Under the pieces are notes generated by a model. The model was given only the letters and a program-made list of their open reading frames with translations, did no database searches and was not told where the DNA came from. Shown here piece after piece: positions 8,984-11,946 of a stretch of 40,901 nt of DNA. Positions within the stretch are counted from its first letter, which is position 1, and each line of letters starts with the position of its first letter. This stretch comes from Candidatus Aenigmatarchaeota archaeon (GTDB lineage Archaea > Aenigmatarchaeota > Aenigmatarchaeia > CG10238-14 > SCSR01): the NCBI GenBank assembly GCA_016187405.1, contig JACPJS010000005.1:1-40901 (forward strand), in the 5' to 3' direction. The position numbers were made by a program, and so were the translations under genes.

Positions 8984-9507
8984 ATTTATTGGCAATCGAT
9001 GTAGCAGTCCTGATGTTCATCAACAAATCTCTAGCGAATCCTGTTTTTGATTTAGTGATGCAATTTCTACAGAATTTCACTTATGTCTTCTGTGTATTTT
9101 TGATTTTATTTTTTGCATTCAAACGAAAGAAAGAATTGGCGTTACTTTTGATATTAGCTGCAATAATCAGTCTTGGTACGTCGTATGTATTGAAAACAGA
9201 AATACATCGCGATAGGCCGTATCAAACTTTGGATGTAAGACAACTTGTAGACGAGGATGCTGGGAAAAGTTTCCCGTCGAACCATGTTTTAATTATTACT
9301 GCATTATCAACTGTGATATTTTCATATTATCGTAGATTCGGAATTGCATTATTCGCATTTACAGGATTGGTTGCATTTAGTCGGATATATGTCGGTGTGC
9401 ATTATCCGAGTGATGTATTGGCTGGAGCCATCATAGGGTTGTTAATCGGATTGTTGATTCTAAAATTATTCAAGCCACGAATAAATAATTTATTAAAAAA
9501 ATTATGA
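8974..9507 (+). CDS. PAP2-family phosphatase
   Basis: KTEIHRDRP, SFPSNH, YVGVHYPSDVLAG. Confidence 0.9.
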   Translation: MAIDLLAIDVAVLMFINKSLANPVFDLVMQFLQNFTYVFCVFLILFFAFKRKKELALLLILAAIISLGTSYVLKTEIHRDRPYQTLDVRQLVDEDAGKSFPSNHVLIITALSTVIFSYYRRFGIALFAFTGLVAFSRIYVGVHYPSDVLAGAIIGLLIGLLILKLFKPRINNLLKKL

Positions 9508-10221
9508 AGACGTAATGTTCTCGTAATTTCCTAGAATTGAAGGATCTTTCATTACAAACCAACCGTCTGGTTCTATAATCCCAACACTATTCCACGCTTG
9601 AACTAGAGAATTGTATACGTTGGCTTCAGGTGAGAGAATAATGACTGGCGCACGTGTGATGTTATATTTTGATATCAGCATCTTTCCTTCGGTAGATGAT
9701 ATATCCAAAGTCGTTTCATTGTTTATTCCAACACCGAAATTTAACAGAATTTGTTTGTTTGTCAGGACGTTATAGCATTTCGTGCAAGATGTGTCATTCA
9801 AGTAAATAACTTTTACAAGACCTACTACTTTACCACTCGATATATTGTAATACGGCGGGAGACCACTTAACACAAGAGCTCCATTGTTTGCTGGAATCGT
9901 ACTTGATAAACCAGATTTATCAATCTCCCCTGTGATTATCAATGCTGGTAATTTTGTGATGCTATATCTATCAATCAAATATTTTCCTTCGTTGCTTGAG
10001 AATGAAACTGTATTTTCGCTCGTAACTTTAACATTAGGAACCTGCTTCAACTGACTGACTATTTTTTGCATGTCATAACAATCACTACAATCGTTCTTCA
10101 CGATAGTTGTAAGAATCGATGCAGATGTAGTTTTACTAAGATTGAAAGGTTTCAATATAGAATATGTCAGATATATGTTGATCAAGAAGACAACTGCTAG
10201 AGATATCAATAATCCTAACAA
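9502..10221 (-). CDS. Membrane-anchored protein with two thioredoxin-like domains
   Basis: N-terminal TM; CSDC and CTKC each followed by a thioredoxin-like SITKLPALIITG / NITRAPVIILSP segment; start is non-ATG (TTG at 10221 or further upstream). Confidence 0.7.
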   Translation of the reverse strand: MLGLLISLAVVFLINIYLTYSILKPFNLSKTTSASILTTIVKNDCSDCYDMQKIVSQLKQVPNVKVTSENTVSFSSNEGKYLIDRYSITKLPALIITGEIDKSGLSSTIPANNGALVLSGLPPYYNISSGKVVGLVKVIYLNDTSCTKCYNVLTNKQILLNFGVGINNETTLDISSTEGKMLISKYNITRAPVIILSPEANVYNSLVQAWNSVGIIEPDGWFVMKDPSILGNYENITSS

Positions 10222-10281
10222 TATCTTCTGCTGCGTATTTACTTTATTCTTTGCGATGTAGTTGCCCCTCAGTTTTATTTA

Positions 10282-10455
10282 TCAACATCCGCCTACTTGT
10301 GATGGCAACGTTGATAGTGCACTAGATTTCACGCCTGAGATCGCCCCAGTCGAAAGTGCCTGATACATTGTGTTCAATTGAACTGCCTGTACGCCAGCTA
10401 TTACTACCAACAATCCCACTAGCACTAGTAGCATTGTGTTTGTATTCATTTTCAT
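10282..10455 (-). CDS. 57-aa membrane peptide MKMNTNTMLLVLVGLLVVIAGVQAVQLNTMYQALSTGAISGVKSSALSTLPSQVGGC
   Basis: Complete ORF below the track cutoff; AGGAGG Shine-Dalgarno before ATG; one TM helix; C-terminal GGC; fits the gap between two cysteine-rich genes. Confidence 0.75.
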   Translation of the reverse strand: MKMNTNTMLLVLVGLLVVIAGVQAVQLNTMYQALSTGAISGVKSSALSTLPSQVGGC

Positions 10456-10465
10456 TTTTTGCCTC

Positions 10466-11857
10466 CTAAACTCCTGCGCTCTTCAAGTAATTTTGCACGT
10501 TGTAAGAGCCAGATAAGGATGAATAATCTTTTCCTGCGACAAGTTCCCTATCAACATCACTCCAATCTTTGTTTTGTGCCAATTTGAAATACATCGCGTC
10601 CTGCACATATGTTGATGGGAACCAGAATGAATTCGCCTTGACAAACGAATCGAAGATGTCCTTTTTGCCATGCCCTTGTGACGCCATCAATTCGACCAAT
10701 CCCAACGCCGAGAAACCATGTGAACAATCAGGGGACGATGTAGGATTGCTGCAACAAGGTCTGTACGAATTCTCTGCGACATATTTTGCAATCTCCTGTT
10801 GTTCTGGTGTGAGCGATAAAAGTTTCATATCGGAATATCCTGGCTTACCCACACCATTGTTGTAATTGTCAAAGTAACTTGCAATAGGACTATCACTCAG
10901 TATAGTATTATTGTTGTGTTGTCCCAATGACCAAAGAACATACATTACAAAAACTGAGTTGTCTGAATTGATTGTTATTTTTTCGTTTAGGTTCGGTGTT
11001 GTCAATATTCTATTTTCATCATCAGTTATTGAATGACCGTATTGATTTTGGAGTACGGATTTCAACTTGTTTGTATCCAAAGCACCCGACTTAATCATGT
11101 CTTGAACTACATTACCCCATGTTGCATTCAATGTGAATCCTTCCTTTGGAACGACTTCCGAAGTAACTTGTGCCAAATCAACTGGTGAATTTGTTGTCTG
11201 AGGTTTGGATATAGATATCATTCCAAAAACAGGGAGTATCTGAACTACAAGTATTATCGCTGTGACAATCAGCATCGAATAAATCAAATATTTGTAAACA
11301 GGGTGTGAGAAATTGTCAATTGCTTGATTTCTCCTTGTTAATTTCGTCGGCTCTCCGACTTTGCAGTATATGCAATAGTTTTCATACGCATTCCTTACAC
11401 TGAACCATAACGCCATCCCCAAAAGTGCGAATGCACCTAGCTGTACAACTCTGATATACGGTATTAGATTAATCAAAAGCAAGGAAAACACATTTCCGAA
11501 AACAAGTAGATTAATTCCAAGACAGGCTGGACATATCAGTCCTATTAATCCGACAAGTAAACCTCCGAAAGAAACACCTTTGCCTGTGGTGTTTTGCTTG
11601 GAAATAGAATAACTGGATAGTGCAAAAATAATTCCAATCGACACGGAACTTGCGAATATGAACAAATAGTCTACCAGTTCCAGAGGTGTTGTACGTAGAT
11701 TTGCGAATATCGGTGGTATCGAAAAAACACCATAAGCAAGAGAATAGATTACTGCAAATATCACTGCTGTCACGACTGCTGTTATGCTATATTTAGAATC
11801 AGACAAGACTTTAATCGCATTTGACAGTACATTTAATTTTGGTTTTGTTCTCATCAA
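10466..11857 (-). CDS. Polytopic membrane protein with CPAC, CIYC and a C-terminal CCSNPTSSPDCSHG domain
   Basis: Six or so TM segments followed by a soluble domain with clustered Cys/His. Confidence 0.75.
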   Translation of the reverse strand: MMRTKPKLNVLSNAIKVLSDSKYSITAVVTAVIFAVIYSLAYGVFSIPPIFANLRTTPLELVDYLFIFASSVSIGIIFALSSYSISKQNTTGKGVSFGGLLVGLIGLICPACLGINLLVFGNVFSLLLINLIPYIRVVQLGAFALLGMALWFSVRNAYENYCIYCKVGEPTKLTRRNQAIDNFSHPVYKYLIYSMLIVTAIILVVQILPVFGMISISKPQTTNSPVDLAQVTSEVVPKEGFTLNATWGNVVQDMIKSGALDTNKLKSVLQNQYGHSITDDENRILTTPNLNEKITINSDNSVFVMYVLWSLGQHNNNTILSDSPIASYFDNYNNGVGKPGYSDMKLLSLTPEQQEIAKYVAENSYRPCCSNPTSSPDCSHGFSALGLVELMASQGHGKKDIFDSFVKANSFWFPSTYVQDAMYFKLAQNKDWSDVDRELVAGKDYSSLSGSYNVQNYLKSAGV

Positions 11858-11946
11858 TCAATCACGAAATTTAGAATGATTATTGTAATAAGTGAAGGCT
11901 TGTTTATAAGGATTTTGGATTTAAAGTTTATAGAAAACTAATATGC

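Follow-up and report, generated by a model that had tools for sequence, protein, structure and literature searches.

A compact unit of three tightly spaced genes, designated A, B and C, was found on the minus strand of the 40,901-nucleotide stretch of Candidatus Aenigmatarchaeota DNA analyzed here (the window). We propose that the unit works as a thiol relay outside the cytoplasm, probably handling Cu(I), with B providing a mobile cysteine arm in trans, and we give this reading about an even chance of being right. The three-gene unit is well supported, and the copper role is supported by the context of relatives only. We infer the identity of the metal, the direction of its transfer and the physical contact of the three parts. 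The unit apparently belongs to a widespread, undescribed family, which is named the CC family here after the cysteine pair in the distal domain of A. A sequence-only reading of this DNA had taken the three genes for an extracytoplasmic thiol or metal system. That interpretation is right in outline and too local, since the CC family is widespread beyond the genus and has a copper context in relatives.

Genes and products of the locus

The three frames were read again, and the frames, motifs and coordinates given by the sequence-only reading were all recovered, as seen in Table 1. CPAC, CIYC and CCSNPTSSPDCSHG are present in the frame of gene A, for which there are two start candidates, a TTG at 11857 and an ATG at 11854; the ATG is the more likely. 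The predicted membrane topology of the unit would place the CC domain of A outside the cytoplasm. Gene B begins 10 nt after gene A and is absent from the ORF track. It encodes one hydrophobic segment, a Ser/Gly/Ala-rich linker and a C-terminal PSQVGGC, and its sole cysteine is its last residue. The hydrophobic segment is favored as an anchor over a cleaved signal peptide, because the residue before the putative cleavage site varies between A and T and the helical pattern runs on. The TATA-like pattern upstream of gene A is not more frequent in the window than expected by chance.

Table 1. Positions of the A-B-C genes and nearby elements in the window
Feature	Position	Strand	Description
Gene A	10466..11857	-	463 aa; membrane protein with CC domain
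Parts of gene A			Membrane-spanning N-terminus carrying CPAC and CIYC; CC domain (residues ~230-460) containing RPCCSNPTSSPDCSHG
Gene B	10282..10455	-	57 aa; reading frame, homologues, signs of purifying selection
Shine-Dalgarno of gene B (AGGAGG)	10460..10467, approximate	-	Overlaps gene A stop codon; direct sequence reading
Gene C	9502..10257	-	Membrane-anchored, two thioredoxin-like CxxC domains (CSDC, CTKC); Thioredoxin_3 match, homologue alignment
Candidate archaeal TATA-like element (CTTATAAA)	11903..11910	-	~50 bases upstream of gene A; weak

For gene C, the position and both CxxC motifs stood, and the TTG at 10221 that the ORF list gives as its start did not, since the homologues start upstream and this start would remove the N-terminus. 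There is no ATG, GTG or TTG at the point where the homologues start. A Shine-Dalgarno-like GAGGGG followed by ATC at 10257-10255 (-) was found at the 5' end of the gene (window 10255-10263), and this near-cognate ATC is the likely start. The alternatives are an upstream CTG start or an assembly error.

Searches of Pfam, NCBIfam and PADLOC gave no credible family for A or B. A had no Pfam match at E<=1 except a chance match to ARID, did not qualify as DsbD_TM or DsbD_2, and found no match in a sequence search of the PDB. The AlphaFold2 model of A has pLDDT block means of 95-99 over most of the CC domain (residues 230-460) and lower confidence in the membrane part. A Foldseek search with the whole model found nothing at E<=1e-3, its top matches being unrelated membrane proteins, and the low-confidence membrane part may mask a match of the CC domain. 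Over 64 sequences, W309, R366, P367, C368, C369, N371, D377, C378, H380, G381, F413 and G450 are invariant, including the RPCC-N-DC-HG signature of the domain. The Cys-Cys-Cys-His cluster could, judging by these residues, bind a soft metal. The CC subfamilies, with PDC[NS]HG, CGCAHS and CECGHH motifs, are homologous by profile (hhalign 96% and 98.8%), and the CC domain of A is best described at the sequence level as an unclassified family. No description of the A-B-C system or the CC family was found in the open-access literature searched, the coverage of which is incomplete, in agreement with the earlier opinion that the system was undescribed.

PCYCGC (PF13798), a family of small Cys/His-rich proteins that lie outside the cytoplasm and contain CGC, was considered on account of the CGC-H motif. 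It was rejected, because no CC locus matched the family model and profile comparison gave a probability of 1.3%. Some PCYCGC-family proteins of Aenigmatarchaeota have a cysteine near the C-terminus (RGCAAS, AGCV; L182 1384-1833 (+), L183 1486-2010 (-)), and these also showed no relation to the CC domain by profile comparison. C matched Thioredoxin_3 (PF13192) with 28.1 bits against a cut-off of 24.8, and its profile match, CxxC motifs and cis-Pro-like LPAL segment are those of a thioredoxin-like fold. Both CxxC motifs are conserved in the alignment of 8/8 homologues. C also weakly matched structures of archaeal PDO (1a8l, 1j08). An identity with PDO (TIGR02187) was rejected at 21.8 bits, far below the curated cut-off of 185; unlike PDO, C is anchored in the membrane, is built of 2-4 repeats in relatives and can carry a cupredoxin.

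Conservation of the unit and the cysteine tail in cis or in trans

The sequence-only reading had staked its interpretation on the conservation of the peptide and its neighbors, and both were borne out. A-B-C was found in identical order in 5/5 genomes of the same genus and in two further genera (g9, g11), with A 46-55% identical to its homologues. The B homologues adjoining A and C in these genomes are 56-60% identical to B, and the SQVGGC(G) end is invariant among them. A dN/dS of ~0.07-0.21, from pairs that are not saturated, shows that B is under purifying selection. On this evidence B is a real, conserved gene, and it is from the selection that we infer its translation. In seven of eight genomes, the DNA pattern encoding QVGGC has a single match, which lies at the A-B-C locus; the eighth (G002) has one additional match in an unrelated frame.

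Other families of the phylum repeat the unit with a CC-domain protein, a transmembrane peptide ending in MVGGC and an anchored protein with 2-4 thioredoxin-like repeats. Of the 27 Aenigmatarchaeota genomes with C, 24 have the peptide adjoining it, the exceptions being G057, G074 and G112. A search for MVGGC directly before a stop gave 22 sites in 14 genomes and none for the reversed control pattern; 21 of these sites are CC proteins or peptides of A-B-C-type loci. The sole site outside such pairs (L212; G110:C51:959-976, minus strand) is an 88-aa HHG-rich frame that ends in GGMVGGC and adjoins a DsbA-like gene. A contig labelled Candidatus Zambryskibacteria (L109 4905-7292 (+)) has peptide, C and A in an order unlike that of the archaea, through either inter-domain transfer or mis-binning.

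When the genomes of 85,462 species were scanned, 210 proteins related to A were found, chiefly in Patescibacteria (CPR), Micrarchaeota and Chloroflexi, and the best 80 of these were taken further. At the C-terminus of nearly every stand-alone CC protein is a flexible stretch followed by GG(G/S)C and one or two residues. By comparison, only 15 of 373 neighboring genes encode a cysteine within the last four residues. A of the window has both marks of the CC family, the CC...C-H motif with profile homology and the GGC tail, here in trans as the adjacent peptide. A third CC subfamily (PCCGFQK...CECGHH) is also cysteine-tailed, with GACG or GGCA ends (L043 12815-13369 (+), L042 705-1259 (-), L074, L112 2448-2969 (+)).

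Next to proteins that have the tail in cis, the peptide is missing. This was the case for 73 distinct proteins of the PDC[NS]HG type, the subfamily of A; one further tailed protein of this type lies 2.4 kb from a peptide, which belongs with a different CC protein. Twelve complete proteins of the type were scored as tailless, and 10 of them have a peptide within 0.8 kb; of the other two, L029 has a cysteine six residues from the end and L114 is masked by N. All six tailless proteins of the CGCAHS type have a separate peptide. The search for GGC peptides beside CC proteins elsewhere, which the sequence-only reading had suggested, therefore found one adjoining 16/16 evaluable tailless proteins in two subfamilies. 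These tailless proteins are confined to few clades, with few independent switches between cis and trans. When both kinds of tail occur in one genome, the two match at 43 of 55 residue positions, against 27 after shuffling (P about 2e-5; 11 non-redundant cases, with a statistic that ignores relatedness), as if both tails faced one site.

These data suggest that the GGC cysteine is part of a portable tail, in most cases fused to the CC domain, and B looks like the detached tail of the neighboring CC protein. B is linked to A because of the fused relatives, which is a Rosetta-stone argument, and the conserved adjacency. In the model of a cis-tailed relative, the tail has low confidence and is disordered, suggesting that it is probably mobile.

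Copper context and alternative explanations

Among the 80 CC loci, Cu-type P1B ATPases were found at 41, and in many of these CPC or CPH occurs together with YN4P and MxxSS. CsoR-family repressors were found at 22 loci, rhodanese/cupredoxin at 25, further cupredoxins at 10 and two-component systems at 14-15. CcdA-like proteins were present at 37 loci, DsbA-like proteins at 18 and DUF1573 proteins with a CPCC motif at 44. The DUF1573 protein, which has an N-terminal CPCCGEPL...PCCG, is the commonest neighbor of the CC gene in CPR bacteria (L125 8871-9665 (+) and 43 other loci). Within 160 Aenigmatarchaeota genomes, a Cu-ATPase was found in 36 of the 41 with part of the module versus 32 of the 119 without (P 6e-12); the association remained after ten close relatives were dropped (P 9e-9). 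C is fused to a cupredoxin in two genomes, G013 and G018, and CopY/BlaI-type repressors (PF03965) adjoin the module in G013 and G016. At three loci (L029 1461-2589 (-), L044 5616-6732 (+), L106 7144-7899 (+)) such a repressor and a BlaR1-like M48/M56 peptidase adjoin the module, which suggests a membrane-sensed regulator.

The genetic association expected of a copper-handling system was found in relatives. In the genome of the window (440 kb, 73% complete), no Cu-ATPase was detected and the locus has no copper neighbors. Therefore, the copper assignment of this copy comes from its relatives only. Mercuric-reductase-like genes and ArsR regulators are also among the neighbors of relatives, so the metal could be other than copper.

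Another possible explanation is a purely thiol-disulfide pathway, in which electrons or disulfides pass from A and the GGC arm across the membrane to C and client proteins, and the copper genes are nearby only since copper harms extracytoplasmic thiols. The thioredoxin-like C, the intramembrane CPxC and CxxC motifs of A and the frequent CcdA/DsbD, DsbA, AhpC/TSA and thioredoxin reductase genes nearby are consistent with it. We consider this explanation rather unlikely, given the strong association with CsoR, Cu-ATPase and cupredoxin, the fusions of C to cupredoxin, and the invariant His and Asp beside the cysteines, which suggest a metal site. The module could also serve in assembly, loading copper into a client cuproprotein, either a cupredoxin or a CuA-type oxidase, as cupredoxins adjoin the module or are fused to C. 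No obligatory cupredoxin partner was seen, and COX1 is present in just 2 of the 160 genomes and in none of the window's genus. An oxidase is therefore not the usual client, assembly of CuA or the heme-copper oxidase was rejected, and copper loading in general seems improbable.

The tail itself could instead be a signal for C-terminal processing, lipidation or anchoring by an unknown enzyme, with no catalytic thiol. It is portable and nearly identical on two proteins per genome, as a recognition motif would be. Against this, both proteins already have a hydrophobic N-terminal anchor, and the position of the cysteine is not strict, as it is often followed by two more residues (GGCGA, GGCGV). Unrelated proteins should also bear a general sorting signal, whereas this tail is confined to the unit, and we think there is little chance that it is such a signal. 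The sequence-only reading had offered a tethered thiol carrier, a metal ligand or a modified-peptide substrate as roles for B. The evidence fits the first two; the modified (RiPP-like) peptide was rejected, as there was no sign of a modifying enzyme and the same tail is found in cis on full-length proteins.

Proposed mechanism and its meaning

In the proposed thiol relay, which is the simplest account, the Cys-Cys-(Asn)-Asp-Cys-His site of the CC domain would bind metal or form a reactive thiol pair, and the flexible one-cysteine arm would visit this site, where metal or reducing equivalents would be picked up or handed over. The arm would be the CC protein's own C-terminus in most relatives and the separate, membrane-anchored B, acting in trans, in this lineage. 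C, a membrane-anchored string of thioredoxin-like domains, would keep the thiols reduced or receive the arm's delivery. C is missing from most CPR relatives and therefore lies outside the core; in other lineages, CcdA/DsbA-type partners may keep the thiols reduced instead.

Parts of this mechanism resemble known systems. In MerA and high-Mr thioredoxin reductase, a flexible C-terminal arm that ends in Gly/Cys carries metal or electrons to a buried cysteine pair. The GGC tail would likewise be a C-terminal cysteine arm serving a cysteine pair. Those arms are parts of flavoenzymes, have two cysteines or Cys-Sec and occur in cis without exception, whereas the arm proposed here has one cysteine, goes with an unrelated domain and no flavin domain, and can be a separate membrane peptide. 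Sco/TlpA and PCuAC pair a thioredoxin-like protein with a copper-binding partner outside the cytoplasm and deliver copper to CuA. The A-B-C unit would similarly combine a thioredoxin-like protein with a proposed copper-binding partner, but nearly all genomes have no CuA oxidase and there is no homologous copper chaperone. As in copper-resistance islands of the CopA/CsoR type, Cu-type P1B ATPase, CsoR, cupredoxin and YHS genes adjoin the CC gene in relatives. The difference is that no annotated copper family includes the CC domain, the GGC peptide or the tandem thioredoxin protein.

More broadly, we tentatively suggest, somewhat short of an even chance, that CPR bacteria and DPANN archaea have in common a previously undescribed extracytoplasmic metal/thiol machine. 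It would consist of an unclassified Cys3-His domain and a single-cysteine swinging arm that is detachable as a ~60-aa membrane peptide acting in trans. Ultra-small bacteria and archaea account for much of microbial diversity, with a surface chemistry that is still largely unknown. A possible bearing on copper-oxide-coated ultra-small cells (PMC9209642) is speculation. The finding provides a testable hypothesis for hundreds of unannotated proteins of these organisms, and the cis and trans arrangements of the tail offer a clean test system. A short peptide outside the ORF track appears here to be a functional part split off from a larger protein.
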